From Dyadobacter tibetensis Y620-1 (lineage in GTDB: Bacteria; Bacteroidota; Bacteroidia; Cytophagales; Spirosomataceae), in NCBI RefSeq assembly GCF_000566685.1, contig NZ_AZQN01000001.1:62001-126000 (forward strand): a stretch of DNA of 64,000 nucleotides, written 5' to 3'. Below the pieces are notes generated by a model, which searched no databases, was not told the origin of the DNA, and was given only the letters and a program-made list of their open reading frames with translations. Shown in pieces: positions 44,801 through 61,413 of this stretch. Made by a program: the position numbers and the translations under genes. Position 1 is the stretch's first letter. The number at the start of each line of letters is the position of its first letter.

Positions 44801-45835
44801 CTACATTCCAATCCTTTTCCTGCTGACCATTTCTTTTATCTTAGCATTGGCTTTATCGACCCATATTTTTTGACCAGCACAAGTCCAGTGAGAATCTCCT
44901 TTTAGATAAGGACTGTTCTTCTGGTTTCGAAAATCATTAAGTACATCAATGGTTTCTAGCCGTAGCTGAGGGTGTGTAATGGTTCGCTCGATTAACCGAT
45001 TATAGTTGCCATAATTAGGCATAAGTACCGACACTTTATTCGGAATTACAGAGAGAAACACATGATCGAAACCCATATTTTCTACTAGGGACTTGGTATG
45101 GTTAAGGTTCAGGACAATGGAATCGAGAGAGGTTTGCGGAAGCTCCGTAAAAGAAGAGGTAAGATTGGGTGTATCCGTATCCATGTAATAGACAATATTA
45201 TTTCCCTCATTAATCAAGGTAACCTCCGGAGTTGTCCGATCGAATAGGAAAAGGTTAAAACCTGCTTTTAGCTCTTTAAGCCTTAAAAAGAAATCGTTCT
45301 GAAATAAAAGTTGATCCAGTCGACTCTCTGTAACCGAGGATCGGAAAAGATCGTCGACCTGAACCATGAGCGGATTGGGATACGCTTCATTGAAACTTGT
45401 TGAGTCAACCACCAAATTGGCCAGGGGCTGGTTGGTAAACTTTTCCCTAAAGTGTCTTTCAACACTCTCTAGTAATAGCACATTAATTACGGAAGTATCC
45501 GGCTTAAAATGTAAGGTTTGGCTCCAATGTGTATAATGATAATAGTCAGCGGCAAAGTTTTCCTTCCCGATTCGATCGGCTTCCGTAAAACTGTCACCAA
45601 TAATATATAGGTGCACGGGTTTATCGGCACCGTATTCTTTAAATGGCCGGTAGGAAGGACAGGGCAGCTTAGGGTCACGGAACTGCCTTAGATTGGAAAG
45701 GCGATACAAATCTCCATATCGGTAACTATCGTTGACCAAACCGGCTTTCGCAGCCAGAGTACTCAGATCGGTGCTGGTACCAATGGCCCAAACAATGATG
45801 AAAAATCCTAAAAAGAAATAGCGTGCAATCTTCAT
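44801..45835 (-). CDS. AlgX/AlgJ-like SGNH-hydrolase-fold protein
   Basis: A 344-residue protein with an N-terminal signal/anchor (about 4-22). The fold is shown by the nucleophile block IGDSF (about 79-83) and the catalytic Asp/His block GDSHW at 313-317, followed by TCAGQKIW, the arrangement of AlgX/AlgJ-type acetyltransferases and related SGNH proteins. Such enzymes O-acetylate polysaccharide outside the cytoplasmic membrane. It is the last gene of the glycan operon, 3 bp after the 893-residue gene. A hydrolase role is also possible. Confidence 0.68.
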   Translation of the reverse strand: MKIARYFFLGFFIIVWAIGTSTDLSTLAAKAGLVNDSYRYGDLYRLSNLRQFRDPKLPCPSYRPFKEYGADKPVHLYIIGDSFTEADRIGKENFAADYYHYTHWSQTLHFKPDTSVINVLLLESVERHFREKFTNQPLANLVVDSTSFNEAYPNPLMVQVDDLFRSSVTESRLDQLLFQNDFFLRLKELKAGFNLFLFDRTTPEVTLINEGNNIVYYMDTDTPNLTSSFTELPQTSLDSIVLNLNHTKSLVENMGFDHVFLSVIPNKVSVLMPNYGNYNRLIERTITHPQLRLETIDVLNDFRNQKNSPYLKGDSHWTCAGQKIWVDKANAKIKEMVSRKRIGM

Positions 45836-45838
45836 TAT

Positions 45839-48520
45839 CTAACGCAACTTAATGGACCATACCTGAATTTTATTTTCAGAACGGCTAAATATCAATAATT
45901 TATAAAACCCGGGCTGATAAGTCAGTCTAACGGGTAGTTCAGAAGGAATCGCTTTATCTCCAAGCCTTTTACCCCTCATGTCAAATAAGGTGGTATAATT
46001 GCCCGACTTAATACTGATAAACCGATTGTCTACGCCAAAGAAATGATACTGAATATCTGAATTGGGCAAAATATCTTTAATCTCGAATAGCTCACGACCC
46101 TCCTTGTCCAATATAGCCGTGCGGGATCCGGTGGAACGGATTAACAGCCAATCCAGAGAGTTTCGGTCAAAAATAATTCTGAAATTAGCACCAGGCTGAG
46201 GGCGAAGTAGCTGTTTACGAGAAACGATCTTGCCCTCCAGGTTGATTCGTAACAGCTGGCCTGAGGTGCTGGTACCCACCAATTCGGGTTGGCCTGTAAG
46301 GTTATTCTGAACCCATGAAAATGGCCCTGCCGTACGGGTTAAGAGGTCAGCAGGGAAACCGCGCCTTACCACCCCCGATTCATTGAGTAAATAGATTTTC
46401 CCGTTGTACTGACTAACGATAAATCCCCGATTTCCTATTTGGTTCAAAGTTACTACCGGCCCTTGAATATTTTCGAAGCGCAGGCTTCTGGAAAGTTTCT
46501 TTAACGGACTCGTAACACTTTCCCAAATGAATAACTCGTCATTCTGACTTCGAACAATGAAACGGTTACTCCCATCCAGGCCTCCATCTACCAGATATAA
46601 GGATTTGATACTATTTCCAGCAGGAAGACTTTGTTTAAAAGTGGTGTATAAAGAGTCATCATCTTGATCTATCGCATAGACACTGGTACTGGTTGCCAAT
46701 ATGCGCTGTTGCCGTCCGATATTAAGAAAGTCAACTTTAAAGGCCTCAGTTTGCAAATGCCCATCCAGTTGGGTAATGGTTTCCGTTTGGCCAGTTTTCA
46801 AATTATCTATTTTTAACAAGTTGAAGGCTTTATCAGTTAAGAGTAGCTCGGAGCTTCCATCCACCTGATTCTGCAGTGCTGCTAACGATTGATCGGAAAA
46901 TATTGGCCATTCCACATCGATATTCAGAAAGGTTTTATTGAGCACCTTGGCTGGTGTGGCCCGTTTCTTCGGAATCAGATTAATTGAAGGATAGGCCTTT
47001 CTACCATCCACCTTACAGCTAAGCACAATGGTTTCAATTTTTGCTGTTAAGTCACTATAGGTCTTACTGGCTGAACTGCCACTGCCCGACTGAATTTTTC
47101 TCAAATTGGCCACCAGGGCTATCTGGGCTTCATTCTTGGAAGATATGAGTACACTATCATATTCCGGAGATTGTTTCCAGGTGATCTGATTCTCGTAATC
47201 TACTAAATAGTTTTGAAGTACCTGAGCATTATTGCTCATTACCAGGTATGGAGCCACGTAGGTAACGAAGGTTTTGTTGAACCCGTTAAATGAAGGTCCG
47301 AATAGGGTAGCGGGAAACTCATTGACGCCGATGGCAAAAATGTCATAGCCCTGGAATTTGTCGTGACTGGAATTAGTCTCTTCGTTGGACAACTGTGCTA
47401 ATTTGAGGAGTGGAGCCCTCAACTTATCATAATGGGCATATTCAGCCAACAAAATTTTTGCATCGGCCAGGCTACTACTTTGTTCTAATTGACAGAATAT
47501 CAATTCAGATCCGAAATTGTCGGTTAAAAGTTTACGGTCGTTCCCAATATGGTAATAGAGCTTACTCCAGCCTTCTGTTTCATTGCTCTCATGCCAGTCG
47601 AGGTATTTTTTGTGAAACTTTTCCTTTTCGGCCGAGGCGTAGCGGTATAATTGAGCCGTCTGTTGTGATATATATTTATGCCCCGTAAAAGTAGACCCTT
47701 TTACGTCCTTGAATAATTGACTCAGGTAGTAATTAGGGCGCTCGCTTCCGTCGGACTCGATAGCGATATGGTGCGGATCTTTACTATTTCTTATGTGAAG
47801 ATCTTGGAAATAGGGGAAATTTTTAAGGAAATGTGTATAATGATGTTGAGGGCCGAGGGAAGGGATTACAGATTTCCAGGCATCTTCCGTCAGGTATATC
47901 GACACCCCGTTGTTGCTGTGTTCGGTATCTGCAAATCTGGATTTAAGATTTCTGCCTTGAAGACTCAGAGATGATGTCCGGATCACGTCTTCGACCAAGT
48001 CACCAAAGTAACTAATAATCAAATAATCGTCCAGTAGTATAAATGAAAATAAGGGGTGAGAGCTGGAGTCATAAATATCCATGATCCGATGATCCTGAAA
48101 GGTATGATGTCTCATCTGAATGGCTGGATTATCGGGTTTCTTTAACCATCCTACTGATTCTTGATCGATAGGAATATATACCAGCACACCCCATTCTGTG
48201 GCAGATCGGGGATGGAAAGAATAAGTGATGTTTTTGTCGTTTAGCAACTCATATAATTTCTTTGAATCGCTTGTTAGCAGATTCAAAGAAGAAAGATTGT
48301 CGCTGGCAACGTCGATTAAAGGTAGCCGCTTTACATCCAGCTCTGCTTCCGAAAGGGTATAGGTTGAGTCCTGTAGGTGACTACTGGTGACCACTACAAT
48401 TGCCGAGGAAGGAATATGCTTCCAGGCCTCTGAGGAAATTCTATACCATCTAAACAGGAAATATCCTGCCAGCATGATGACAACAGCTAGCAGGATAATC
48501 AAATATTTATTTTTAATCAC
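45839..48520 (-). CDS. Large membrane-anchored extracytoplasmic protein, unknown, propeller-like C-terminus
   Basis: An 893-residue protein with one N-terminal helix (about 6-24, YLIILLAVVIMLAGYFLF) and a long extracytoplasmic part. I recognise no family with confidence; residues about 30-520 loosely resemble DUF3352-type proteins. Residues about 560-890 show a repeated beta pattern with aspartate- and glycine-rich turns (VDGGLDGSNRFIVRSQND, SQYNGKIYLLNESG, FDMRGKRLGDK) that suggests a PQQ-like or WD-like propeller. It lies 10 bp after the GT2 gene and 3 bp before the SGNH gene, so it belongs to the glycan locus. It might sense or scaffold glycan assembly; that is a guess. Confidence 0.6.
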   Translation of the reverse strand: MIKNKYLIILLAVVIMLAGYFLFRWYRISSEAWKHIPSSAIVVVTSSHLQDSTYTLSEAELDVKRLPLIDVASDNLSSLNLLTSDSKKLYELLNDKNITYSFHPRSATEWGVLVYIPIDQESVGWLKKPDNPAIQMRHHTFQDHRIMDIYDSSSHPLFSFILLDDYLIISYFGDLVEDVIRTSSLSLQGRNLKSRFADTEHSNNGVSIYLTEDAWKSVIPSLGPQHHYTHFLKNFPYFQDLHIRNSKDPHHIAIESDGSERPNYYLSQLFKDVKGSTFTGHKYISQQTAQLYRYASAEKEKFHKKYLDWHESNETEGWSKLYYHIGNDRKLLTDNFGSELIFCQLEQSSSLADAKILLAEYAHYDKLRAPLLKLAQLSNEETNSSHDKFQGYDIFAIGVNEFPATLFGPSFNGFNKTFVTYVAPYLVMSNNAQVLQNYLVDYENQITWKQSPEYDSVLISSKNEAQIALVANLRKIQSGSGSSASKTYSDLTAKIETIVLSCKVDGRKAYPSINLIPKKRATPAKVLNKTFLNIDVEWPIFSDQSLAALQNQVDGSSELLLTDKAFNLLKIDNLKTGQTETITQLDGHLQTEAFKVDFLNIGRQQRILATSTSVYAIDQDDDSLYTTFKQSLPAGNSIKSLYLVDGGLDGSNRFIVRSQNDELFIWESVTSPLKKLSRSLRFENIQGPVVTLNQIGNRGFIVSQYNGKIYLLNESGVVRRGFPADLLTRTAGPFSWVQNNLTGQPELVGTSTSGQLLRINLEGKIVSRKQLLRPQPGANFRIIFDRNSLDWLLIRSTGSRTAILDKEGRELFEIKDILPNSDIQYHFFGVDNRFISIKSGNYTTLFDMRGKRLGDKAIPSELPVRLTYQPGFYKLLIFSRSENKIQVWSIKLR

Positions 48521-48530
48521 AGGGATGTGT

Positions 48531-49274
48531 TTACGCTTTTATGGCTTTAACCTTTTTGTTCAGTTCCAAACGGAAGTTTAGTAATTCCTGAAAGCTCCTA
48601 ATGCAGACCTTCCACAGGTTCCATTTAACGATGGAGACTTCCCCTGTAGCCCGATCTTTATGGGTAATGGGAATATCGAAAGTTTCCTGACCGGATTTTT
48701 TGGCCATGACTGACAAGAAAATATTGGGAGCAAAGGGCTCAGGATTTGGCAGTTGATCCATTAATTTTTGCAGGAAGGTACCTCTTATCAGGCGGAAAGG
48801 TATATTACTATCCATGATGTAAGTACCATAAACTGCAGAGATGGTTCCTCGGAGCACTTTGGTAATAAACAAACGTACACCTGCATCGTGACGTACTTGA
48901 CGGTATCCTAAGATAAAGTCAGATTGATTACGCTTCGCCCACAGTTTATCAAAATCATCAGAAACGAACTGGTCGTCACTGTCAGTTTGAAATACAAATT
49001 CCGACCCCAATTTAAGGGCAGCAAGATATCCGTTGACAACCGCATTGCCGTGGCCCCCATTTTTTTGGTGGATAACGGTGAGATTGGAAACTTCCCCTTT
49101 GAGCTTATCCAATAGCACCTGGGTGTTATCCTTGGAGCCGTCGTTGATAACGATTAGGGTCGTGTTATCGTTTGGAAACTTTTCTCTTAGAAAGTTAGTC
49201 CAGCTATGTACCACTTTTTCAATACAATCTTGCTCATTGTATGCGGGCATTACTATACTCAGAAGGAACGACAT
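48531..49274 (-). CDS. Family 2 glycosyltransferase, DPM1-like without membrane helices
   Basis: A 247-residue GT2 with the fold start LLSIVMPAYNEQDCIEKVV, the nucleotide-binding VINDGSKDNT, the helix NGGHGNAVVNGYLAA and the metal-binding FQTDSDDQF (DSD). It has no C-terminal membrane helices, as in bacterial dolichol/polyprenyl-phosphate mannose synthase-like enzymes. It likely loads a sugar on polyprenyl phosphate or extends a lipid-linked glycan. It lies 73 bp after the acyltransferase gene. Confidence 0.88.
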   Translation of the reverse strand: MSFLLSIVMPAYNEQDCIEKVVHSWTNFLREKFPNDNTTLIVINDGSKDNTQVLLDKLKGEVSNLTVIHQKNGGHGNAVVNGYLAALKLGSEFVFQTDSDDQFVSDDFDKLWAKRNQSDFILGYRQVRHDAGVRLFITKVLRGTISAVYGTYIMDSNIPFRLIRGTFLQKLMDQLPNPEPFAPNIFLSVMAKKSGQETFDIPITHKDRATGEVSIVKWNLWKVCIRSFQELLNFRLELNKKVKAIKA

Positions 49275-49347
49275 TCAAAATTGGTTTTGGTAAGTTGTTG
49301 CGAATTTAATAAATATTAGTGGATACCCCCTATTCAAATAATTATAT

Positions 49348-50457
49348 TTACCCAGCGTATTTATCTTTCAGTGAATTAATAGGTTTCTCAAAGAAATGCC
49401 AGGACAAGGAGGCCACGATAACTGTTAGTATAGCGTGAATCATCGCTTCGAATGGGAGGGAGTGTTCCAGCCCAGGGACAACGCTATAGATTTTGTTCAT
49501 TAAGCGGACTGTGGGGTGGTTGGGGCCACTATGATAATGATTGTATACAAAATTGTGATATAGGTAAAGACCATAACTTATTTTCCCTAAATAAATGCTG
49601 GCAGGATGCTCAAGAAATGCTTTCATCCCCCCTTTAAATCCTACCACCGACCGGCCTATCAAAAAGAAACAGAAAACAGACGAAACCAGCCTGTCATAGA
49701 CGACATTGGCCACATTATGTAACGTTTCTCCATACGTTTTTGACCAAAAGTGTAGCAGACACCAGGCGATTAGTCCAAGCCATACGGGCCAGGAGCTGCT
49801 GAATAACTTGGTGAAGACTTCATTCTTATAGAGCTGCAACCAGGCCATCAGTCCGCCTAAGGCGAAGGAATCTAGACAAGCAGGCATGGTAACATAAGAG
49901 ACAAACCATTCTTTTCCTGTATAGAAAAAATAGAACCGAAGCAATACGCTCATCAGACCCATTATACCTAGTACTGGTATTAACTTTTTCCGGGGTACGA
50001 AAAAGATAAGAAAAGGAAAAAAGATGTAAACCTGCTCTTCGACTGCCAAGGACCAAAAATGATCTACAACGCCCATCCAGCTCTGGTGAACAGCAATATA
50101 GATATTGGTGCCATACAAAACCAGCCAAGCCCAGGTATCCCGCACCGGAGGTACATCGAATACCAAAAGCAGTGCAATACATAAATAATATACTGGAAAT
50201 ATTCGTATGGTCCGACGGATAAAAAATTTGCTAAGATATCTTCCCAGCCCTCCCGGTTCATCAATAGTCTTTTCCTTACTCTTAAGTAATATGCGGGAAA
50301 TAAGAAATCCGCTCAATACAAAAAAAACGGTTACTCCCAGTGGGCCTAAAGGAATGGTATTCACCTCTGCAAACCAGTGGTCAATAAGTACCAGGGCAAC
50401 CGCAATAAAGCGGACCCCGTCTAGTTGTATAATATGTCCTTGTGGTGTTGCGCGCAT
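49348..50457 (-). CDS. Acyltransferase family 3 membrane protein
   Basis: A 369-residue polytopic protein of the acyltransferase-3 (OafA/NodX) class with about ten hydrophobic helices. The family start LDGVRFIAVALVLIDHWF includes the catalytic-type His, followed by GVTVFFVLSGFLISRILL and the FFIRRTIRIFPVYYL segment. These enzymes move acyl groups to sugars, often O-acetylating surface polysaccharide. The gene starts 2 bp after the 564-residue membrane protein gene, so it belongs to the same operon; together with the SGNH protein it points to glycan acylation. Confidence 0.92.
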   Translation of the reverse strand: MRATPQGHIIQLDGVRFIAVALVLIDHWFAEVNTIPLGPLGVTVFFVLSGFLISRILLKSKEKTIDEPGGLGRYLSKFFIRRTIRIFPVYYLCIALLLVFDVPPVRDTWAWLVLYGTNIYIAVHQSWMGVVDHFWSLAVEEQVYIFFPFLIFFVPRKKLIPVLGIMGLMSVLLRFYFFYTGKEWFVSYVTMPACLDSFALGGLMAWLQLYKNEVFTKLFSSSWPVWLGLIAWCLLHFWSKTYGETLHNVANVVYDRLVSSVFCFFLIGRSVVGFKGGMKAFLEHPASIYLGKISYGLYLYHNFVYNHYHSGPNHPTVRLMNKIYSVVPGLEHSLPFEAMIHAILTVIVASLSWHFFEKPINSLKDKYAG

Positions 50458-50459
50458 GT

Positions 50460-52154
50460 TTACCAGTTGACCTCTATTTTGTTGGCCTTCACTTCCGGGA
50501 TAATAATTTGTTTCGATTTAAAGAGTATACCTAACTTTCCACCCTCTTGTCGTAGAATTCCGACCTTATAAGTTCCTGCTTTCATCTGGCTAAAGGGTAC
50601 ATCGGAATAAAAACCGGGGGCAAAATAGAGTTGCTTGAGGAATAATTGTTTTCTATTTCTATTACGGGTACGATAGGTAGGGTAAACATAATAACGCTCC
50701 TGATTGCTAAATAGCAAATAGACACCACTATCAATCAGTCTTTGACTCGTGTAATGGTTATTTGACACAAGCATATTAGTCGGTGTTTCTTTTAACTCGG
50801 TCTGACCCATCAGGGCAGACAAGCCCTGAGTAACTCCAGCATAGCCCTGTTTGTCCGCCAACTTTATGGATCCAAACCATAGCTTGTAATTATTAGGCGT
50901 TTTTGCGACAATGCCTTGAGCGAAGGTGGAATCCGGAGCGATCGTTAAACTTTTGTCGGTATAGGTCCAGTTAAACTGATCCGTAGAAAGCATCTTTCGC
51001 AAGTTGGATGCATCTACCAGATGGTAATAGTAACTAAATATGTTAAATATGACGGCTAGTAAGGTAATGGCTGAAATATATGGAGACAAGAAACTACCTC
51101 TTATTGGAACCACTATATACAGGTAAGCAATAACCAATAAGAGTACGGAATAGATCTTATAACGACTCGTTATAAGCCCTTCCAGTCCAAATCCAGCTCT
51201 GGAATAGACGACGATGAGAGCGGTTCCTAATATAAACATCAGGGCCCCAATGGTAAATAAATCCGTTATTTTTTCACTTTCCTGTACCTTTTTTTGACTC
51301 GAAAGACGATAAAGCGCGTTAATTCCGATAGAAACAGAAACCAAAAACAATAGTGTTCCTGCTATAATACAGATTTGAAAACTATTCGGTACCGGGACAG
51401 ACTCGGCAAATGAACCCAAAAATGCCATGTAACCTTTGAGAAGCTGAAAGAAACTCGCCCTAGATTCTGGGTTGGATACATTGCCCTGGTACCAATTAAA
51501 ATATCCATACAAAGCCCCGGCACTCACGAGTACCCAGAGACCTAATCGCTGTGGCTTTCGGCCTATAAACAACAGCACGGCTCCTATTGGAAGCACGAAC
51601 AGACCATTACCACTAGTTACCACCGTAAGACAGGCCAGCAATAGGGAAATGACAAATAGTGTATTACTGGGGTGTATACACAAATAAATGGTCCATAAAA
51701 CCAGTGTAACAACGCCGAAATTTTGAATCGCTGCCATCCCCCAATACATATTTTCCCAAAAAGCAAGGGTTAACCACAGGAATGGAATGGGCACAAGTGC
51801 AAACAATGGCTTTTTATTCTGATGGAGGAGCGAATGAAATAGGGGCAGGGCAGCAAGGAGCAACAAATTGCCTGCCATCATGAGGTGCCGGTAGTTTAGG
51901 GCACCTGTCCATTTAAAATCTAACCAGGCGATGAGCCTTGTTAAGGCAATACGGTGTTCATTATGTTGCTTACTTAAGGCAGCAAACTGAGCGGTCCAGG
52001 AGTTGGCATTGCTCATATCGACTATAAATGCCTTCAGCGAATGGTCGTCCCACTTGGGTATATTGATTGCATAAAAATCCCAGGCTATAAAGAATATAGC
52101 CACGGGGATCAGCAAGAAGATGCTGACAACTATTTTACTAAACGTCTTATTCAT
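50460..52154 (-). CDS. Polytopic membrane protein, probable GT-C glycosyltransferase
   Basis: A 564-residue membrane protein with about ten hydrophobic helices in its first 385 residues and a soluble beta-rich end (about 390-564). The first extracytoplasmic loop carries an acidic motif (NIPKWDDHSLKAF) and a conserved-looking HNEHRIALTRLIAW, the pattern of GT-C enzymes that use polyprenyl-phosphate sugars. I recognise no named family. It overlaps the transketolase C-terminal gene by 4 bp and precedes the acyltransferase by 2 bp, so it is tightly coupled to the glycan locus. Role as the transferase for the locus-specific sugar is inference. Confidence 0.65.
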   Translation of the reverse strand: MNKTFSKIVVSIFLLIPVAIFFIAWDFYAINIPKWDDHSLKAFIVDMSNANSWTAQFAALSKQHNEHRIALTRLIAWLDFKWTGALNYRHLMMAGNLLLLAALPLFHSLLHQNKKPLFALVPIPFLWLTLAFWENMYWGMAAIQNFGVVTLVLWTIYLCIHPSNTLFVISLLLACLTVVTSGNGLFVLPIGAVLLFIGRKPQRLGLWVLVSAGALYGYFNWYQGNVSNPESRASFFQLLKGYMAFLGSFAESVPVPNSFQICIIAGTLLFLVSVSIGINALYRLSSQKKVQESEKITDLFTIGALMFILGTALIVVYSRAGFGLEGLITSRYKIYSVLLLVIAYLYIVVPIRGSFLSPYISAITLLAVIFNIFSYYYHLVDASNLRKMLSTDQFNWTYTDKSLTIAPDSTFAQGIVAKTPNNYKLWFGSIKLADKQGYAGVTQGLSALMGQTELKETPTNMLVSNNHYTSQRLIDSGVYLLFSNQERYYVYPTYRTRNRNRKQLFLKQLYFAPGFYSDVPFSQMKAGTYKVGILRQEGGKLGILFKSKQIIIPEVKANKIEVNW

Positions 52155-53071
52155 ATCATGGCATTTAGTGCCATCACACTTTGGGCTATTGAAGTAGAAT
52201 CCAGCCCCGACAATTTCTGGTGATAGCCCTGGCTACCGTATTTACCATTGGGATAGCCTTCTGCCTTAATGCTTTTGAAAAACCTAATGGGTATACCTGA
52301 CTCGAGTAAGGGAACACTAAGCTGCTGGGCCAAGCCTCCAGTCCCAATATGCTCTTCTGCAACGAGAATGTTGGGTGTTTGGCTTAATATTGTTCTAATT
52401 TCCGTGCTTATTTCCAGGGGAAACCTCAAAACGGATAAAATATTGATACGCTCTTTAAGCTCAGGGAATTCTTCCATCGCTTGAATCACATTATTCGCAA
52501 TGGGGCCGAGGGCAATTATAGTTGTATCGGCCTGTAGTCCCTGATGCAGAACTTTGAAGGAGCCAGTATGGAATGCGCCCATAGGGCTGGTCTTGCCAGC
52601 GCCTAGACGTAAATAGGTGGGCCTTGATTCAGAAATAATTTGCTGTAAAACGGGCTCAATTTCATCTGAAAATGCTGGAGTCCATACCTGAGCGTTTTGC
52701 AGTCCACTCAGGCAGGCTATATCTTCGATAGTATGATGGCTACTTCCCATGATACCGTATCCATATCCACCTCCATTACCGACCAGAAATACTGGTAAAT
52801 TATTGAAACAAACGTCGTTACGGAACTGTTCCAGACATCGGTATACGATAAAAGGAGCAATACTATAGCAAAATACCTTGTATCCTTTATGGGCAAAGCC
52901 GGCGGCAACACCAACCATATTTTGCTCAGCCACACCCGCATTGATAAATCTATTGCCCAGTTTGGCTTGTAGGTTCTCCAAGGCATTATAGCCTAGATCG
53001 CCTGTGATGAAGACTATGGAGTCATCTTCTTCGGCCAGTTTTTCTATGGATGCTGAAAATTCTTTTCTCAT
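52151..53071 (-). CDS. Transketolase, C-terminal subunit (split transketolase)
   Basis: A 306-residue protein made of the pyrimidine-binding and C-terminal domains of transketolase. The catalytic Glu that activates thiamine diphosphate lies in NAGVAEQNMVGVAAGFA (about 42-58); SYSIAPF-like text and GYGIMGSSHHTIEDIA follow; the C-terminal domain ends with a short YPNGKYGSQGYHQK. Split transketolases occur in archaea and in some bacterial sugar-pathway clusters. The N-terminal half is encoded two genes upstream, separated by the epimerase-glycosyltransferase fusion, with 4-bp overlaps on both sides of this gene. Substrate unknown. Confidence 0.88.
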   Translation of the reverse strand: MRKEFSASIEKLAEEDDSIVFITGDLGYNALENLQAKLGNRFINAGVAEQNMVGVAAGFAHKGYKVFCYSIAPFIVYRCLEQFRNDVCFNNLPVFLVGNGGGYGYGIMGSSHHTIEDIACLSGLQNAQVWTPAFSDEIEPVLQQIISESRPTYLRLGAGKTSPMGAFHTGSFKVLHQGLQADTTIIALGPIANNVIQAMEEFPELKERINILSVLRFPLEISTEIRTILSQTPNILVAEEHIGTGGLAQQLSVPLLESGIPIRFFKSIKAEGYPNGKYGSQGYHQKLSGLDSTSIAQSVMALNAMI

Positions 53072-55074
53072 TTGCGTAATTGTTTCACGAGTGTGCGAAT
53101 CTCTTCTGCTGTTTTGTAGGCCTTACTACCGCGCCTAATCCTGGTGCGGATGTATTTGGGCCGTTTTTTAGTTTCTTCGAAAATTTTGGTGATGTACTCT
53201 CCTAAGAAAGAAATCCCAAGTATAGTCAATCCCCCAAAAAAGACAATCAATACAATGACCGTACTAATCCCCTGAGGCGTATTAGGGAAAAAGAATAATT
53301 TGGCGAGAATTTGCCAAATTATTCCCAGTATTGAAAGACCTGTAAGGGCAAAACCAGCATAGCTCATAAGCTCTAAGGGAGCGAAGCTAAAGGAAAAAAT
53401 TGCCTTTTTTGCCCACCAAATATTTTTGGTCCAATTATTGGTAGAAACGCCGAACATGCGCTCAGGACGTACGTAAGGAACACCTGTTTGTTTAAAGCCA
53501 ACCCAAGCACGTAGCCCTCGTAAGAACTGCTCGGTCTCGGGTAAGTCCACCAATTCTTTTACAACTTTTCGGTCGATCATCGAGAAGTCACCTGCATCTC
53601 GGGGAATCGGGATATAACTTAGACTCTGAAATATCTTGTAAAAGCTCTTATAAAAGAAGTGAATATGCGGCTTCATTTCCCGCTGTACCCGCACCCCGTA
53701 GACTACATCATTACCGTCCATCCATTTTTCATAAAAATCTGGGATGATTTCCGGAGGATCCTGTAAGTCTCCATCCATCAGAACGACACAGTCTCCCGTA
53801 GCGATTTCCATTCCACTCAAAAAGGCGGACTGAGACCCGAAATTACGGGAGTGGCTGATACCTACTACATTGGGGTCTTTGTCACAAATATTGTTAATAA
53901 CCTCTTCCTGATTGTCAGGAGAATTGTCATTCACAAATATTATTTCATAGCGAACCTTTAACTGGTTGAAAGTCTTCACCAAACGTTCATACATAAAGGG
54001 AATCGCCTGAGCGTCCTTATAACAAGCGATAATGGCAGTGATTACCGGGTTCAACCTGGGGTTCTCAAATGCCGGTATTACGGTATTCTGGTAATCTATG
54101 GCTTTCTGCCAAGCCAATGTTTTTTGTAAGCCTTCTTCTAGTGTGGTCCGTGGAGACCAACCAAAATCATTTTGGAATGCCTCGGAATTGCCATACCATT
54201 CTGCCAAATCCCATTTTCGATTGGACATACTGCCCCATTGAGGACTTTTATCAATGGCAAAGGTCTTTCTGGTCGTCTCTATAAGATCGCCTATGGTCGT
54301 TTTTCGTCCTGTGGCAATGTTATAAGACTTTCCTGAGGTTTGAGCAGTGATGCGATTGGCAGCGTCGATAAATGCTTCGACACAGTCTTCGATAAAAACA
54401 AAATCCCGACTGATATCAGGGGAGACCAGAGTAGGAAGATCTTTTTCCCGGGCACATTCGATGAGCTTAGACATCAGACGATCGGGCTCCTCCCAGGCAC
54501 CATAAATTGAGTATAAACGTAAATTAAGTGTTTTAAGCTTATTTACCTTAGCATAATATTCCAATAAATAAGCGGCAGAAACTTTCGAAACAGCATAATG
54601 GCTGTTTGGCTCCACCCGATCAGTTTCCTGAGGTGCCGTACAGTTAAATCCATATTCCGAACTGCTTCCCGCATGAATATAAATCATCTCTGGACTACAA
54701 TTCTGCAAAAGGTTTACAGTCCCTAATACGTTCGTTTCGTAGGTGAGGTTTACATTACTTTGCTTACTGTAAGCCCCGTATGCCGCCAGATTGAATATGG
54801 TCTGTGGTTTATATCGTTCGAAGACTTCTTGAACGGAATTATTCGACAATATATCACAATGGATGATGTTCTCGAACGGTACATTCAATAATTTCAATCG
54901 CCAGGCTTTGGTCGCATCATGTGTAAGGGCGTAGCAATCCTTCCTGATTTTGAAAATATCATTGAATAGATTGGCACCGATAAATCCACTTGCTCCAAAT
55001 ACAAAGATGGGCCCTTTTAACTGTTCAATTTTATCGCGGTAAACCGGCAATTGGTCAAGCATTCGTAAGTTCAT
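53068..55074 (-). CDS. Fusion of NAD-dependent sugar epimerase/dehydratase with GtrB-like glycosyltransferase
   Basis: A 668-residue two-enzyme fusion. Residues about 20-335 are an extended SDR of the sugar-nucleotide class: FGASGFIG cofactor loop, SSSEYG, and catalytic YAVSK. Residues about 345-585 are a GT2 of the DPM1/GtrB type (AIIACYKDAQAIPF, VNDNSPDN, LMDGDLQDPPE), followed by two membrane helices (about 575-635) and a basic tail. The chain can thus make a nucleotide sugar and pass it to polyprenyl phosphate. It lies between the two transketolase halves (20-bp overlap upstream, 4-bp downstream). An alternative start at 55062 would shorten the upstream overlap to 8 bp. Confidence 0.9.
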   Translation of the reverse strand: MNLRMLDQLPVYRDKIEQLKGPIFVFGASGFIGANLFNDIFKIRKDCYALTHDATKAWRLKLLNVPFENIIHCDILSNNSVQEVFERYKPQTIFNLAAYGAYSKQSNVNLTYETNVLGTVNLLQNCSPEMIYIHAGSSSEYGFNCTAPQETDRVEPNSHYAVSKVSAAYLLEYYAKVNKLKTLNLRLYSIYGAWEEPDRLMSKLIECAREKDLPTLVSPDISRDFVFIEDCVEAFIDAANRITAQTSGKSYNIATGRKTTIGDLIETTRKTFAIDKSPQWGSMSNRKWDLAEWYGNSEAFQNDFGWSPRTTLEEGLQKTLAWQKAIDYQNTVIPAFENPRLNPVITAIIACYKDAQAIPFMYERLVKTFNQLKVRYEIIFVNDNSPDNQEEVINNICDKDPNVVGISHSRNFGSQSAFLSGMEIATGDCVVLMDGDLQDPPEIIPDFYEKWMDGNDVVYGVRVQREMKPHIHFFYKSFYKIFQSLSYIPIPRDAGDFSMIDRKVVKELVDLPETEQFLRGLRAWVGFKQTGVPYVRPERMFGVSTNNWTKNIWWAKKAIFSFSFAPLELMSYAGFALTGLSILGIIWQILAKLFFFPNTPQGISTVIVLIVFFGGLTILGISFLGEYITKIFEETKKRPKYIRTRIRRGSKAYKTAEEIRTLVKQLRK

Positions 55075-55900
55075 TAAGATATCGTTCCTTCACTTCTTGG
55101 GTTGCCAGGTCAAACTGCTCCTGTTTCATAGGTAGATAATGCCATTCTAGCTTATTTTCCATATATGAAACTCCTTTTCCTTTAATAGTATCGGCAATTA
55201 TTACTTTTGGGATTCCATTTTTACGGCCTTTTAAGTCCTGGATTGTTTCATTAAGCTGTGGTATGTCATGCCCGTCAACCACAACCGTTTCAAAACCAAT
55301 TGCCTTCCATTTTTCGGGTGAAGCGGTCTCCCCTAAAACCTGGGTAGTAGTGCCGAAACCTTGCAAGCCATTTTTATCAATAATCATAATCAGATTATCC
55401 AACTCATTTTGTATGGCATAATGTGCGGCTTCCCAGGTCGTTCCTTCGTTGGTCTCTCCATCCGAGAGCAAAGCATAAGAATAACTTCCGTCGCCCGATA
55501 CTTTAGCGGCATGGGCTATGCCTGTAGCGATAGGGAGACCATGGCCCAATGAGCCCGTAGCGAAGGGTATCCCTTTATATTTACGCGGAGCTGGGTGAGC
55601 AGGTAATGTGGTACCGTCTTTATAAAAAGTATCCAGTTCCTGATCCGAAATTTCGCCTAGTACATTTAAGCAGGCATACAAAGCTGCGGCTGCGTGTCCC
55701 TTCGACAGAATGAAAGTGTCTTCTTCTTTCTTATTTAAAAACAATACGGCGATCATAAGATCGATGCAACTCAAGGAACAGCCTATATGGCCTGCATTGG
55801 CCTTGTGGTATAAGCCAAGGATCTTTAGTCTAAGCTCGCCGCTCAAACGTTGCGGGTTATCTATGATTTCTTCTGCAGTCATGGCCTTGTTGTGTGTCAA
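55055..55900 (-). CDS. Transketolase, N-terminal subunit (split transketolase)
   Basis: A 281-residue protein holding the thiamine-diphosphate-binding N-terminal domain. Motifs: HKANAGHIGCSLSCIDLM, LSKGHAAAALYA, GSLGHGLPIATGIA, and the diphosphate/metal motif SDGETNEGTTWEAAHYA ending in IIDKN (the usual GDGE starts with Ser here). It needs the C-terminal subunit encoded further down the operon to be active. The start could also be the ATG at 55882. A 104-bp gap separates it from the GT39-like gene, so an extra promoter before it is possible. Confidence 0.9.
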   Translation of the reverse strand: MTHNKAMTAEEIIDNPQRLSGELRLKILGLYHKANAGHIGCSLSCIDLMIAVLFLNKKEEDTFILSKGHAAAALYACLNVLGEISDQELDTFYKDGTTLPAHPAPRKYKGIPFATGSLGHGLPIATGIAHAAKVSGDGSYSYALLSDGETNEGTTWEAAHYAIQNELDNLIMIIDKNGLQGFGTTTQVLGETASPEKWKAIGFETVVVDGHDIPQLNETIQDLKGRKNGIPKVIIADTIKGKGVSYMENKLEWHYLPMKQEQFDLATQEVKERYLNELTNA

Positions 55901-56004
55901 TGCGGTTTTTGAACTTGCCTACAAAGTAACAAGCATTTTATTTCAAATTAGCGTGCAATATACAAATTCTTATTGGTCGGCTCGTCAATCGGAGGGGTGA
56001 AAGG

Positions 56005-57891
56005 CTATTCGGAGCCATAGCGTAGCCCTTTAAGTCGCTTGATTACAATCGGCTCGGCCTGGTTTTTTTTAAGTAATAAAATGCTTTCCTCTTGGGTGGT
56101 ATCCATGCGTTGCACGTATTGGCTCTTCTTTGGAAGGTACAGGTTCGTCAGCTGGGCATCTTGAACCGAGTAGGGAAGAAAGGTCCGGTCCATCTCGGAA
56201 AGAAATAGGAAGTCTGGAGCTGGATATAAGACTGTATCACCCGGCTGGTATAGGTTCTGAATGCGCTGGGCTGCCTCCATATAGGGATTAGGCTCCCTGG
56301 TGTTTGCGAAATAGCCGTATTTGACCGACTGGTCCTGATAAAACTCCTTAAGTCTCTGGCCGACAAAGATCATTTGCAATCCAAAAACTACCAAGCACAG
56401 GATTCGATATTCCAGACGGAGTTTCGTAATTGTAAGTATGATCAGACTTAATAAAATAATTACATATGGAAAAGAAAATCCAGAGTATCGCTGGGTAATG
56501 CCTGTTGTATGACCATTTTTGAAAGCCATGACAATTAAAAAGAGAGTCGGTATTAGTCCCATAAAATACAGGAGCCATAGCCGATGCTTCTGAGGCTTGG
56601 AGGAATTTTTATGAACATCCCAAACCAAAGAAAGCGCAAATAAGCTTACTGAGAGTATAGTAAACTGTATCTTATTCTGGGTATATATTGCCAATCCCAA
56701 GAACATCAGAATAAAGGGGACAGCGCGGGTCCAGTGTAAGGCAGGGGTGGGCGTTGACAGATTGCTTCTGCGATTTTGATACCGATACCAAAGTATCAGC
56801 AGAAGGCCTAGTACAAGGGAAACCACCAGATTTCTTTTTCCTACCAACGCATCGGCAAGCCCATTGCTGAAAAGAAATATATCAGAAAATAACGGCAGGG
56901 ACTTATTGAGGACATTCTGAAAGGTGGCCGGTAGAGCACCGAACGGATTGTTGTAGGGCCTGGTTTCGGCCATGCGTCTGTAAAGGTCGGCCTGATAGCT
57001 CAGTGTGTATAAGGTATATTGCCCTCCTCCCGCCACTAGCCACCAGGTAACTCCGGAAAGGGCTGCAGGAGCCGCCAGAGCCAGTCGAATCCATGTTTTG
57101 ATATTTTTCAGAAAGAAGAGCGCATACAATCCATGAGCCAACAATACTGTGATGACCAAAAAATGAGATAATAAGGCCAGTCCAGCAGCTAAAATATACC
57201 CTAAATACAATTTCCATACCTTTCGGGAACCCGGCGAATCTTCTATTATCTGCAGGAAATAGTAGGTTGCCAGTAGGGTGAGAAAGAAGGTGAGGGAATA
57301 ATTACGTGCTTGGTGGCTGTAAGCTATAAAAAAAGGCTCTATGGCTACGATACCTGCTGCGATCAAGCCTACCTTATTGGAAAAAAAGCGCTGCCCAAAA
57401 AAGTAGGTAAGTGCTATGATGCCTATACTGAACAGAACCGAAAATCCTCTTGCAGAGAAATCGGACATACCAAATATCTCAAGCCAGTAGTGAAGCAGCA
57501 GATAATAAAATGGACTATTGCCTATATCGCTCCGAGTCATGGCCTCGTAGTAGTCGGCTATGGATTTAGGCGCCCAGAACTCTTCCGGGGTAAAGCTTTT
57601 GGGGACAAATATCTCCTGATAGGTGAAGGATCGAAGTACGCCTCGGGGCCTGTAATCTAAGCGGGGGCTTTGCCAAAATGGACGCGCCGTAATTCGTTTA
57701 CTGGCAAAAACATCCTTTTGATTAGCACCCTCCAAAACGATTCCCTGGCTGATAACCATGGTACTTTTCTCATCGAAAAATATGCTATAGGCATCTAGCT
57801 TGTACATACGCAATCCAAGGCCCAAAGCCAAAATAAGCGCTAATATGAACCAGGATTTTTCGGGAGAAACAGAATTAGATTGAGTCATCAA
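56005..57891 (-). CDS. GT39/ArnT-like polytopic glycosyltransferase
   Basis: A 628-residue membrane protein with about ten to twelve helices. The first loop contains the acidic pair in YSIFFDEKSTM (about 35-45), the catalytic motif of GT39/PMT-2 enzymes, and AYSHQARNYSLTFFLTLLATYY is the family's typical membrane segment. GT39 enzymes transfer a sugar from a polyprenyl-phosphate donor to a lipid, protein or glycan acceptor on the outer face of the cytoplasmic membrane. It is the first gene of the glycan run, 91 bp after the OmpA-family gene. The acceptor is unknown. Confidence 0.85.
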   Translation of the reverse strand: MMTQSNSVSPEKSWFILALILALGLGLRMYKLDAYSIFFDEKSTMVISQGIVLEGANQKDVFASKRITARPFWQSPRLDYRPRGVLRSFTYQEIFVPKSFTPEEFWAPKSIADYYEAMTRSDIGNSPFYYLLLHYWLEIFGMSDFSARGFSVLFSIGIIALTYFFGQRFFSNKVGLIAAGIVAIEPFFIAYSHQARNYSLTFFLTLLATYYFLQIIEDSPGSRKVWKLYLGYILAAGLALLSHFLVITVLLAHGLYALFFLKNIKTWIRLALAAPAALSGVTWWLVAGGGQYTLYTLSYQADLYRRMAETRPYNNPFGALPATFQNVLNKSLPLFSDIFLFSNGLADALVGKRNLVVSLVLGLLLILWYRYQNRRSNLSTPTPALHWTRAVPFILMFLGLAIYTQNKIQFTILSVSLFALSLVWDVHKNSSKPQKHRLWLLYFMGLIPTLFLIVMAFKNGHTTGITQRYSGFSFPYVIILLSLIILTITKLRLEYRILCLVVFGLQMIFVGQRLKEFYQDQSVKYGYFANTREPNPYMEAAQRIQNLYQPGDTVLYPAPDFLFLSEMDRTFLPYSVQDAQLTNLYLPKKSQYVQRMDTTQEESILLLKKNQAEPIVIKRLKGLRYGSE

Positions 57892-57982: not shown

Positions 57983-60019
57983 TTACCGATCTAGGATTGT
58001 AAATTCTACGCGTCGATTTTTCTGGCGTGCTTCTTCGGTAAGATTGTGGGTAAGTGGTCGTGAGGGGCCCCAGGCTTTGGTATCTATTCTTCCGGGGGCC
58101 ACCCCTTTACCGGTCAGATATTTCTTTACCGCATTGACCCGATCCTGAGCAAGCTGTACATTTTTCTTTATATCGCCCTGATTGTCTGTATGACCTTCTA
58201 GCAGAACACGGCTCTGAGGATTTTGAATCAGATAATCGGCTACCAAGTCTAGTTCCTCATAAGTACCTGGGCTTATTGTCGCACTGCTCTGAGCAAACAT
58301 GGTGTTGCTAAGCCTGATATTTTCCCCTTTTACAATGGGTCTCAGATAAGCATCCAATGAGATCTGGTATATCGTGCTCTCTTGGTTGACTACTAATTCT
58401 TTGATTTCTGGAAAGTATCCTTCCTTTCTGATTTCGATTCTATAAGAGGTGTTTTGTGGTAGAAATAACTGAAATTTTTCCTGGGTAGGTATAAAGGTCG
58501 TTTTGAGAATTGTGGAATCTTTAACGCTATTCGATACGATTATTTCGGCAGATATGGGCTGGTTATTACTGAGATCGTATACGGTGCCACTGACATGAAC
58601 AAGAGGCTGGGGCTTAATTTCAGGGCTCAGCCGGATTCTGTAAATATCTACGTCGGAGAAGTTTTCCGCAGTTGAACTAAAGTAGGCAAATGTGGCATCG
58701 GCTGGTAGGTTGAAATACCCTTCCCATCCTTCGCTATTTATCGCAGGGCCCAGATTTTCCGGTTCGCTCCATTTGGTCCAGCTATCGTCGAGTCTGCGGC
58801 TTAAAAAGAGATCGCTTTGGCCAAAGCCACTGTGCCCTTCTGAGGAGAAATATAAGGTTTTGTTGTCTAGAGCCAGGAAAGGAGAGCTCTCGTTTGCAGC
58901 GGAGTTGATGGTGGACCCAATATTTAGAGGGGGAGTCCATTGGTTCTCGTCGGAAAGGAATGATACATAAATATCTCTTTTCCCCTCCGTATCTGGGCGT
59001 TCCAAGGCCATTAAGAGTACATTTCCTAAAGGGGAGACGGTGACTTCCATAGAGTTATTATTTTGGTTGACACCTAAGCTTGGTATTCGTAGCTCTTGTG
59101 GAAAGCTCCAGCCCCCTGCCGATCGCATGGAATAGGAAAACCCAAACTCCAAAGTGCCATCAGGAAGGTATTTGTTAATGAGATAGATCTTATTTCCATC
59201 GGCAGAAATACTGGTGATGGCATTGTCTCCGTAATTGTTTAGTGGAGCGCCCAGATTGGTGGCGTTGGACCAGCGGCCCCGGTTATCCAGGGTCGACTGC
59301 CAGATGTCCTGACGCTGAGAGGTGCCGATATTGCCCGGGTGATTGGCCCGAGCAAAATACAAAGTTTTGCCATCCGAGGAGATGACGGGAGCCAGTTCCG
59401 TCCCTTTGCTGTTAACCGCAGCCCCCAGATTTTCTTTCTTCTGAAGCGATTCTAAATCTTGGGTAATACGAATATTAGCTCTGATGGGATCTGTACTATC
59501 AGAGATTCCGATGGCGTCCAGCTGATTAAATCCCGTGACGGTCGATGGAGCCAGAACTACCTTTATAGCCTTACATACAATATCGCTCTCGGAGGGGAAT
59601 ATTCGAAGCTCCCTACCACCTCCGGCTACTGGGCCAGGCTCTCGTTTGTCTATCAGGTATTCACGACCCTCCGTATCATACGCATATACCCTTGTAACTG
59701 CACCGGGATGGTGGTTTTCTCCAATGAAGACCTGGGCTAATCTGATTGGAACTTTAAACCCTACTTTTATCCATTCCTCATCTGCCCCATCGGGCCGGGC
59801 CGATGTCCATGCCACAGGGCTATCGCCATAGGATGGGAGCTTATTAGGCTGGCCCAGAACCTGTACGGCGCGATAGCCTTCCCCGTAACTGCCGTCGCGC
59901 AGTTCAGAGGAATATCCTAAAATGGTTTGCGCCCATTGCGTATTTTGCCCTTGGGCATAGGCTGTTGCCAACAGTGATAGAATGGGGAATATTGTATATT
60001 TAAAAAACGAAAACTTCAT
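57983..60019 (-). CDS. OmpA-family outer membrane protein with PD40-like repeats
   Basis: A 678-residue secreted protein with a signal peptide (LLATAYAQGQ, cleavage near 22). After an N-terminal beta-sandwich (about 28-180), it shows WD40-like PD40 repeats (about 195-440; ISSDGKTLYFAR, ISADGNKIYLIN, LALDNKTLYFSS), a CarboxypepD_reg/Cna-B-like domain (about 455-545) and a C-terminal OmpA domain (about 560-678; LLEGHTDNQGD, RRVEFTI) that binds peptidoglycan. Such proteins link the outer membrane to the cell wall. No N-terminal beta-barrel is present. A TATCTTTG box lies upstream. Confidence 0.9.
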   Translation of the reverse strand: MKFSFFKYTIFPILSLLATAYAQGQNTQWAQTILGYSSELRDGSYGEGYRAVQVLGQPNKLPSYGDSPVAWTSARPDGADEEWIKVGFKVPIRLAQVFIGENHHPGAVTRVYAYDTEGREYLIDKREPGPVAGGGRELRIFPSESDIVCKAIKVVLAPSTVTGFNQLDAIGISDSTDPIRANIRITQDLESLQKKENLGAAVNSKGTELAPVISSDGKTLYFARANHPGNIGTSQRQDIWQSTLDNRGRWSNATNLGAPLNNYGDNAITSISADGNKIYLINKYLPDGTLEFGFSYSMRSAGGWSFPQELRIPSLGVNQNNNSMEVTVSPLGNVLLMALERPDTEGKRDIYVSFLSDENQWTPPLNIGSTINSAANESSPFLALDNKTLYFSSEGHSGFGQSDLFLSRRLDDSWTKWSEPENLGPAINSEGWEGYFNLPADATFAYFSSTAENFSDVDIYRIRLSPEIKPQPLVHVSGTVYDLSNNQPISAEIIVSNSVKDSTILKTTFIPTQEKFQLFLPQNTSYRIEIRKEGYFPEIKELVVNQESTIYQISLDAYLRPIVKGENIRLSNTMFAQSSATISPGTYEELDLVADYLIQNPQSRVLLEGHTDNQGDIKKNVQLAQDRVNAVKKYLTGKGVAPGRIDTKAWGPSRPLTHNLTEEARQKNRRVEFTILDR

Positions 60020-60141: not shown

Positions 60142-61413
60142 CTAGTTTTGACCCGCACCGATCAGAAGGATCCAATCCCATTCCGATTTGTTCTCGGGCG
60201 GAGTCAGGCTGGCTTCAGGCTGGTTGGGTAGGGTACCAGCAAACCATCTCTTTCCTGTACGCGGACTGTACCAAACGGCTCTAAACTGATCGCCTTCTAG
60301 ATGAGATAAATATACGTTGATACTGCGCGAATCGGGTAAATACGCAATTGCCATTCTTTTATTGGTTAACATTTTTACATGTACTTCGGCCCGATCCATG
60401 GGGCTTACTAGCAGGGAACTGTTCCATTCGGTCTTAAGAAATGCCCATGGTACGCCATTTAAAACCTTAACTAATTTCTCGATGTATTCTGCACCATCCT
60501 GGGTAATATTTGTTTTCCACGTCGGGTTGAAATTCTTGATGGTGCTTTGATGACAAAAACCACTGCCGCTAGCCATAAAGGCTGTGAATGCTTGCTGACG
60601 AATTTCTGCAGATTGGTCCAGAAGTTCTTTAGAAAATATACTATTCGCCAGTAAAAAGGGGCGCTGTATTTCTCCCGTTTCCTCTGAGGCCTGCTGTTTT
60701 TTTACAAAATTTTTATAGTCCGTTTCAGAGTTCGTTGAGTCTGGAATAATAAAATCAAGGTCATAAGGTCCCCCATTCACTTCTTTCGATATTTTGGGGT
60801 ATTGCTGAAGCAGCAGACCCATCATTCGATTAGGTTGCAAAGTACGAATTTGCTCGGTAAGTAAGGATGCATATGGCCGGGACTGGTCGGTGTCGTCGAC
60901 TAGCCAAAATACGTTTTTATGCTTACCTACAGTTTGAATTAAATGGGACATATATTGTCCGATGGACTCAGGGCTAGCATCCACAAAGGATTGGTGCCAT
61001 CCTTGTCTGTTGACTACAATGCCCACGGCAATTTCTCTTTTTTTTGCCGCCGCTACCACTTTTTCTATATGACTGAAATAGCCTGGGTTGGGCTGAGAAA
61101 AACTTCCCCCTTTAAAGGCCTCCTGTTTATAGAAATTTTTAAGATTAGGACTGCCGGGTAGGGCTTGAACAATGATGCAGTTAAAGGACTGGGATTTACG
61201 GATATCCATATACTCAGCAGCTTCCTGAAGGCTAAGCTTTCGAAAAAGTTGCCAGGCCACATCAGCAACCATCAAGAAAGGTTGCTCTTGTTCATCCAGA
61301 AGATGTTGCCCGTCTTTACTCGCCTGCAGGGGAAAAGCAGTTTGGGCCAGTGTATTCTGAAATACATGAAACAGGATACCCAGAATTAATCCACATAGCT
61401 TCTTCGTTTTCAT
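60142..61413 (-). CDS. DUF4038 (GH140-related) secreted protein
   Basis: A 423-residue secreted protein, signal peptide to about residue 24 (QNTLAQ). The DUF4038 TIM-barrel start is clear (LMVADVAWQLFRKLSLQEAAEYM, about 48-70), and the C-terminal beta domain is of the putative collagen-binding type (VWYSPRTGKRW). DUF4038 includes the GH140 apiosidases. The usual WILGGDRNP catalytic block reads WLVDDTDQSRP here (about 170-180), so the acidic residues are shifted and the activity may differ. Its ATG overlaps the rpe stop by 4 bp, so it is coupled to rpe. Confidence 0.78.
   Translation of the reverse strand: MKTKKLCGLILGILFHVFQNTLAQTAFPLQASKDGQHLLDEQEQPFLMVADVAWQLFRKLSLQEAAEYMDIRKSQSFNCIIVQALPGSPNLKNFYKQEAFKGGSFSQPNPGYFSHIEKVVAAAKKREIAVGIVVNRQGWHQSFVDASPESIGQYMSHLIQTVGKHKNVFWLVDDTDQSRPYASLLTEQIRTLQPNRMMGLLLQQYPKISKEVNGGPYDLDFIIPDSTNSETDYKNFVKKQQASEETGEIQRPFLLANSIFSKELLDQSAEIRQQAFTAFMASGSGFCHQSTIKNFNPTWKTNITQDGAEYIEKLVKVLNGVPWAFLKTEWNSSLLVSPMDRAEVHVKMLTNKRMAIAYLPDSRSINVYLSHLEGDQFRAVWYSPRTGKRWFAGTLPNQPEASLTPPENKSEWDWILLIGAGQN

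Follow-up and report, generated by a model that had tools for sequence, protein, structure and literature searches.

In the Arn pathway (ArnA-ArnC-ArnT), a short-chain dehydrogenase/reductase (SDR) makes a nucleotide sugar, a family 2 glycosyltransferase loads it onto undecaprenyl phosphate, and a GT-C glycosyltransferase transfers it outside. GtrABC systems decorate the O-antigen, AlgX/AlgJ and AlgI function in polysaccharide acetylation, and in yersiniose branching the reductase YerF acts after YerE. According to PMC12247030, YerE is a thiamine diphosphate (ThDP) enzyme branching CDP-3,6-dideoxy-4-keto-glucose, and the transketolases (TKs) of the miharamycin and amipurimycin pathways have been proposed to transfer a hydroxyacetyl group onto a ketosugar (section 2.3). 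The same review lists 13 further split-gene TKs, all from Streptomycetes, which are predicted to act likewise and of which none has been characterised in vitro; by its account, Streptomyces gene clusters are the only source for which ketosugar-acting split TKs have been put forward. Moreover, split TK genes occur together with a methyltransferase gene in the exopolysaccharide (EPS) cluster wps-2 of Actinoplanes missouriensis (PMC13390465). In this study, we report the analysis of a nine-gene locus of Dyadobacter tibetensis Y620-1 (family Spirosomataceae), located on a 64,000-nucleotide stretch of contig NZ_AZQN01000001.1 (positions 62,001 to 126,000; hereafter the window), and show that it consists of two modules and not of one pathway. 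Module B is a split transketolase (N-terminal half TKN, C-terminal half TKC) with an SDR-GtrB fusion (FUS); module A comprises the genes AT3, GT2, U893 and SGNH; and two putative membrane glycosyltransferases, GT39 and U564, flank module B (Table 1). Its probable product is a rare branched sugar that is attached to a membrane lipid and ends up on the cell surface together with other sugars and acyl groups.

As in yersiniose branching (PMC12247030), a nucleotide 4-ketosugar would here receive a carbon branch from a ThDP enzyme. Unlike YerE, which belongs to the decarboxylase superfamily and uses pyruvate, the enzyme is a split transketolase (TKN and TKC match the transketolase family, and not the decarboxylase superfamily as a YerE-like enzyme would), and its product would be passed to a fused polyprenyl-phosphate transferase. 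Miharamycin and amipurimycin are secondary metabolites, whereas the present locus is a family-wide envelope locus. It shares with the Arn pathway an SDR, a family 2 loader and a GT-C protein, ArnC and ArnT being among the matches, but the SDR and the loader are fused, and transketolase and acylation genes are added. The combination of a GtrB-like loader with a GT-C transferase resembles GtrABC, from which the locus differs in having two family 2 loaders and two GT-C proteins and in that GtrA was not seen in it. SGNH recalls AlgX/AlgJ-AlgI, as does the gene for a membrane-bound O-acyltransferase (MBOAT) that adjoins U893 in the loci of a few relatives; the sequence match is weak, however, AT3 is present too, and Dyadobacter's own MBOAT lies at another locus. 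The wps-2 cluster, in contrast to the Dyadobacter locus, has aminotransferases and Wzx/Wzy, and the passage of PMC13390465 concerned states no role for its TK. The open literature searched yielded no paper on a transketolase-SDR-GtrB unit and none joining apulose or bradyrhizose with a transketolase, and lipid-linked branched sugar donors would be a class not described in it.

The analysis shows the gene content, the synteny, the predicted fold of U564, the residues lost from TKC and where the modules begin and end; for the ketone acceptor, the branch, the substrates, the order of the steps and the acceptor molecule, we infer the following scheme. The split transketolase would take a two-carbon unit (hydroxyacetyl) from hydroxypyruvate or a ketose and add it to the ketone of a nucleotide-activated 4-ketosugar, and the resulting C-branched sugar would carry a tertiary alcohol. 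A keto group would then be reduced by the SDR part of FUS, whose GtrB domain would load the branched sugar onto undecaprenyl phosphate. GT2 would use UDP-galactofuranose, probably loading it on polyprenyl phosphate too; in Dyadobacter the mutase gene lies outside the locus. Acyl groups would be added or moved by AT3 and SGNH together with an MBOAT from another locus, U893 would provide a scaffold in the periplasm, and there the GT39-like and U564 (GT-C) proteins would draw on the sugars linked to polyprenyl phosphate. We give a probability of about 0.5 to this two-module reading, in which a branched-sugar cassette and a galactofuranose/acyl module share an operon-like locus; the branching step as stated has an even chance. 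The wider proposal, that a split transketolase without phosphate binding makes C2-branched nucleotide sugars and belongs to a mobile three-gene unit of Bacteroidota and Alphaproteobacteria delivering by polyprenyl phosphate to GT-C enzymes, is tentative and falls a little short of even odds. If true, it would offer a testable, widespread source of transketolases acting on ketones and forming tertiary alcohols, an activity described in section 2.3 of PMC12247030 as proposed and uncharacterised in vitro. It would also offer a route by which bacteria could export branched sugars via polyprenyl phosphate. More than half of the Spirosomataceae genomes searched (127/222 carry the fusion) would then be expected to encode an envelope glycan containing both galactofuranose and a branched sugar.

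The split transketolase and the SDR-GtrB fusion

Relatives' loci were collected by a contig scan, in which 80 of 108 were kept; the conservation counts use these 80 only, since the other sets of loci share genomes with them, and 64 of them, each longer than 21.5 kb with about 10 kb on either side, are referred to as full-flank loci. The closest solved structures for TKN and TKC were 6yak and 6yaj, the paired chains of a split transketolase, 6yak being the best for TKN. Residues are named after E. coli TktA, whose numbering and roles we take to apply to both halves; the substrate-phosphate/acceptor contacts lie in the C-terminal half (R358, S385, H461, D469, H473 and R520). The ThDP and ketose-donor residues D155, the second G of the GDG motif, E160, N185, H66, H100 and H261 were found in all 76 aligned relatives of TKN, and H26 in 75 (one gap); the first G of GDG was replaced by S in all 76. 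In all 75 cassette TKC sequences from the family loci, R358 and H473 were kept, S385 was changed to Y/F, H461 to G and D469 to M, and the R520 position held A, V, F, Y, L or N. The cassette TKC retains two of the six sugar-phosphate substrate contacts, and the housekeeping split TK of the same genome (L210) retains all six. As judged from these residues, TKN keeps its ThDP machinery and TKC is without most of the substrate-phosphate contacts.

It could be argued that the transketolase merely supplies a phosphorylated precursor (a pentose, a heptose or another sugar), which housekeeping enzymes activate, FUS then epimerising and loading a conventional sugar. In its favour, the ketose-donor residues examined in TKN are kept, and Rpe, which makes xylulose-5-phosphate, is encoded upstream in 50 of the 64 full-flank loci. 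Rpe, however, also adjoins a locus that has no TK genes (L203) and was rejected, as unspecific, as a donor gene for the transketolase; moreover, the cassettes read showed neither a sugar kinase nor a sugar-1-phosphate nucleotidyltransferase. Phosphosugar supply is made less likely by the loss of four of the six substrate contacts, all present in the genome's own split TK, and we regard this explanation as distinctly unlikely.

With no kinase, nucleotidyltransferase or separate dehydratase seen in the cassettes read, the substrate of the unit should be a nucleotide ketosugar that the cell makes anyway. RmlB (474 bits) and RmlC are present in the genome, and a GDP-mannose dehydratase-like gene was seen by eye (L198). 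A CDP-sugar route was considered and rejected here, since no CDP-glucose dehydratase scored over the cut-off and the best match was the RmlB gene. Because RmlB is present and a CDP-glucose dehydratase was not found over the cut-off, dTDP-4-keto-6-deoxyglucose is the first candidate and would be the likeliest nucleotide ketosugar in this genome.

Split TKs were also found in other biosynthetic contexts. A Methylovirgula plasmid carries rfbF, rfbG, an oxidoreductase gene, rfbH, TKN and TKC, with a family 2 glycosyltransferase gene and GtrA adjoining on the other strand. On a Paenibacillus plasmid, rfbF, rfbG and a methyltransferase gene are followed by a gene for a 635-aa SDR+TKN protein and then TKC, while the split TK of Solidesulfovibrio is near pseB/pseC. 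The TKC proteins of the three have F, F and A, respectively, at S385, G at H461, no acid at D469 and Lys at R520; contact losses like those of the cassette, where the split TKs adjoin nucleotide-ketosugar genes (those for CDP-ketosugars in Methylovirgula and Paenibacillus), argue for the branching step. The Paenibacillus SDR-TKN fusion (L190, 5097-7004) is annotated merely as an SDR oxidoreductase. The TKN-TKC-FUS trio itself recurs across phyla, a TKN-TKC-fusion unit being present on a plasmid of the alphaproteobacterium Methylobacterium aquaticum (L178, 9111-12861). The annotation of that record comprises one feature in total and none for these genes. The TKs of the cassettes and of Methylobacterium formed one clade (TKC 100/99, TKN 97/92), with weak links to other groups. 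In a plasmid search at E<=1e-100 the fusion was found only in the Methylobacterium record, and no relative of the Methylobacterium fusion was found on virus contigs. The Dyadobacter genome has a third split TK (L211, C7:83269), beside a sugar-binding-protein-like gene (by eye; periplasmic), which is probably catabolic.

The family 2 part of FUS matched sll0501 GtrB (5e-60) and ArnC (8.9e-32), and a DGDLQDPP-type motif (acidic metal site) was present in 79 of 79 FUS sequences; this domain is predicted to be a GtrB/ArnC-type polyprenyl-phosphate transferase. The Methylobacterium fusion is 41% identical to FUS in the SDR and 53% in the family 2 part; the SDR parts of Methylovirgula and Paenibacillus are distant from the FUS SDR (24 and 22% identity).

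Gene order and the boundaries of the two modules

The full-length fusion was found in the D. tibetensis genome, in all 36 genomes of the same genus and in one of 22 order-level genomes (G041). At E<=1e-150 it was detected in 127 of 222 family genomes, which represent 21 of 36 genera (the matches in G199 and G201 are incomplete), and at E<=1e-100 in two of 395 phylum-sampled genomes, both Spirosomataceae. The fusion family accounted for 5078 of 7999 scored candidates at E<=1e-90. TKN, FUS, TKC, U564, GT2 and U893 were each present in all 64 full-flank loci, GT39 in 62, AT3 in 61, SGNH in 57 and an upstream OmpA gene in 56; the sequence ends first in several of the seven loci where SGNH is missing. 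Across all 80 loci, FUS had TKN as a neighbour in 77 and TKC in 76, and six of the seven misses were contig ends. In every one of the 64 full-flank loci, those of the genes from GT39 to U893 that are present were collinear and shared a strand, a conservation of gene order that is more than chance. The initial annotation had made its case depend on synteny in relatives, and proposed to look for co-occurrence of the split transketolase, the fusion and the 564- and 893-residue proteins; both were found in 64/64.

Its further claim of a self-contained, single pathway did not hold. Five otherwise similar loci (L199-L203) are without TKN-FUS-TKC, and module B is thus a removable cassette. In one of them (L202, genome G223) the order is OmpA-GT39-U564-AT3-GT2-UGM-U893-SGNH, with 74 bp between GT39 and U564 (UGM, UDP-galactopyranose mutase); in L199 it is OmpA-U564-AT3-GT2-UGM-U893-SGNH, and smaller gene sets are retained in L200, L201 and L203. 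At the cut-offs used, GT2 occurs without a detected fusion in 46 family genomes, and the fusion without GT2 in three of 127. Conversely, three loci of uncultured Bacteroidetes (L145-L147, contigs of 5.8-15.5 kb) and 20.9 kb of the Methylobacterium aquaticum plasmid contain TKN-TKC-FUS while no module A gene could be recognised there. AT3 and GT2 are separated by other genes in two genomes (G206 and G221). Extra genes for UGM, an MBOAT acyltransferase and methyltransferases lie inside some relatives' loci, UGM and MBOAT being carried elsewhere in Dyadobacter. Methyltransferase genes near the cassette (7/80 loci) are of two kinds, one in Emticicia, a Spirosoma-like genome and Methylobacterium (on the other strand), and the other in Emticicia and L145-L147. 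The existence of cassette-free module A loci led us to reject a single self-contained pathway; what remains of the idea that one locus makes, loads, transfers and acylates a sugar is a split transketolase and an SDR tied to a GtrB loader, with GT-C and acylation genes.

The two modules might also be neighbours by history only and serve two unrelated glycans, GT39 and U564 working for module A and the GT-C partner of the cassette lying elsewhere. Module A with U564/GT39 and no cassette (L199, L202) is in keeping with this, as are the cassettes of L145-L147 and Methylobacterium, near which no module A gene was recognised but other membrane and methyltransferase genes lie. However, 62 of the 64 full-flank loci have the cassette placed between GT39 and U564, and GT2 is present in 124 of 127 fusion-bearing genomes; both argue against it, and we consider it unlikely.

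Proposed galactofuranose use, membrane transferases and acylation genes

A eukaryote-type UGM gene was identified in 14 of the 80 loci (4dsg, 7.4e-145) and a bacterial-type Glf gene in five. In the loci read it lay between GT2 and U893, the Glf type occurring in Arcicella. The eukaryote-type UGM (L126, 16655-18043) and the distantly related Glf (L129, 16800-17897) occupy the same locus slot in different genera. With two unlike mutases in one slot, a shared need for UDP-galactofuranose is the simplest reading. UGM of either type was found in 167 of 170 GT2-bearing family genomes, as against 13 of 52 without GT2 (kinship ignored). GT2-UGM distances were compared in 92 of the 167 genomes having both, a set that leaves out 48 Dyadobacter, most Runella-like and some other genomes; the two genes lay within 1 kb in 64 (53 eukaryote-type, 11 Glf), 22 of which are without the fusion. 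Since GT2 adjoins UGM in at least 64 genomes, we infer that it handles galactofuranose, as a user of UDP-galactofuranose. The Glf of the D. tibetensis genome (L194; PF03275, 1.9e-82) is encoded beside Wzc- and PHP-like genes (by eye).

The 564-, 893- and 344-aa proteins gave zero Pfam matches at E 0.01. For U564, Foldseek gave no match at E<=0.001, while a GT-C transmembrane fold match was obtained with its predicted model via VIA, ArnT being among the structural matches. D37 and E66 were invariant in 40 U564 sequences and are placed by the model helices in the first external loop, which together suggests a GT-C glycosyltransferase. U893 is a probable periplasmic scaffold. In SGNH, G80, D81 and S82 (GDS), D314, H316 and W317 were invariant in 10 sequences; the ALGX profile matched weakly, with 8/10 at E<=1, a best value of 1.3e-4, and 0.011 for the window protein (15.8 bits, under the 26.5 cut-off). 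A profile search of solved structures returned nothing useful for U564 or SGNH.

Several observations weigh against the two-module reading and its branching step. The TKC of Methylobacterium retains Arg at R520. Three catabolic-looking split TKs (L192, L193 and L211), the first two adjoining FGGY-kinase and transporter genes, keep S385 and have lost the His/Asp pair. Because they share it, this loss alone is no proof of a nucleotide-sugar acceptor; among 18 TKs compared, only the S385 change separates the biosynthetic-context from the catabolic-looking group. No GtrA flippase was seen in the locus, and among the matches listed for the literature on Dyadobacter no Spirosomataceae glycan structure was found. 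GT2 is not beside UGM in 28 of the 92 genomes compared, and the Dyadobacter Glf, present in 48 of 48 genomes (one a contig-edge fragment), is unlinked to the locus. Ignoring kinship, UGM was found in 125 of 127 fusion-bearing and 55 of 95 fusion-less family genomes; as it is common without the fusion, the co-occurrence of the two is partly a matter of EPS in general. Finally, the profile matches of the FUS SDR are generic (GalE-like, RmlB-like and others), and this domain could be an epimerase or a dehydrogenase; in L098 an opposite-strand gene follows FUS, with no TKC in the 1.4 kb to the contig end; and in G041 the fusion is less than 200 bases from a contig end, with no TK gene in 9.9 kb on the other side.

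These last three points would also suit a fusion whose product is an ordinary hexose on polyprenyl phosphate, formed for example by 4-epimerisation, with the TK pair as a bystander. Such an arrangement is hard to reconcile with the presence of TKN and TKC beside FUS in nearly all of the 80 loci, L098 being the only miss unexplained by a contig end, with the recurrence of the trio across phyla, and with the existence of an SDR-TKN fusion. We consider it very unlikely, and retain the two-module reading.

Layout of the locus and neighbouring genes

All nine open reading frames (ORFs) were confirmed on the minus strand, at window positions 44801..57891, as the initial annotation had placed them. 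In the direction of transcription the gaps are GT39 +104 TKN -20 FUS -4 TKC -4 U564 +2 AT3 +73 GT2 +10 U893 +3 SGNH; six of the eight fall within -20 to +10 bp, in agreement with the range given earlier, and the exceptions are GT39-TKN and AT3-GT2. The start codons of GT39 (TTG), TKN (TTG) and U893 (GTG) are uncertain. Pfam domains found were PMT_2, Transketolase_N, Epimerase with Glycos_transf_2, Transket_pyr/Transketolase_C, Acyl_transf_3 and Glycos_transf_2. These family matches agree with the functions first proposed.

Table 1. Genes of the locus and its usual upstream neighbour (window coordinates)
Gene	Description	Position	Strand	Basis
GT39	628-aa membrane glycosyltransferase of GT39/PMT_2-like type, assigned to the GT-C superfamily by family match	56005..57891	-	PMT_2 5e-15; Agl23-like TIGR03663 6.2e-10, below its cut-off
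TKN	N-terminal (ThDP) half of split transketolase	55055..55900	-	Transketolase_N 5.9e-30
FUS	SDR (res. ~10-335) + GtrB/ArnC-like polyprenyl-phosphate glycosyltransferase (res. ~340-668)	53068..55074	-	Epimerase 2.1e-40, Glycos_transf_2 8.3e-27
TKC	C-terminal half of split transketolase	52151..53071	-	Transket_pyr 1.2e-25
U564	Putative glycosyltransferase of GT-C fold; first loop with an acidic/HNEHR motif	50460..52154	-	predicted fold
AT3	Acyltransferase-3 membrane protein	49348..50457	-	Acyl_transf_3 1.3e-22
GT2	DPM1/ArnC-like family 2 glycosyltransferase	48531..49274	-	Glycos_transf_2 3.1e-18; ArnC 2.6e-11; DPM synthase 4.1e-7
U893	N-terminal anchor + DUF3352-like part + C-terminal beta-propeller (~527-892)	45839..48520	-	
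SGNH	Membrane-anchored acyl esterase/transferase, AlgX/AlgJ-like, 344 aa	44801..45835	-	GDS...DSHW triad, weak ALGX match
OmpA	OmpA/PD40 protein, usual upstream neighbour	57983..60019	-	OmpA 1.5e-21, PD40 1.8e-19

Reading the window ORF lists by eye, and not by profile, we saw no flippase, polymerase, polysaccharide exporter or priming transferase (Wzx/Wzy or ABC type), as had been noted before, and decoration of an already existing molecule is possible. Promoter and terminator counts were about those of shuffled sequence, and comparison with PHROGs gave nothing informative. Ada/AlkB genes downstream were not counted as members of the locus, since they occur in one of 80 loci, although many loci end shortly after SGNH.

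Directly upstream of the OmpA gene, an apiosidase-like glycoside hydrolase is encoded at 60142-61413 of the window on the minus strand (PF13204, 3.9e-30; PDB 8t9w apiosidase, 1.8e-18); apiose is a branched sugar. A homologue was found in 34 of the 80 loci, and an amylase-like gene takes its place in Larkinella (Pfam) and, by eye, in Spirosoma. Several SusC/SusD-like outer-membrane uptake pairs were seen by eye at 1-8742 and 10887-16065 of the window, with a sigma/anti-sigma pair between. Additionally, a second locus of the D. tibetensis genome (L196, C2:688000-707500) contains a paralogue of U564, two GtrB-like genes and the gene for a membrane protein with DUF6056; it also encodes an MBOAT, a homologue of which sits inside the main locus in Arcicella.

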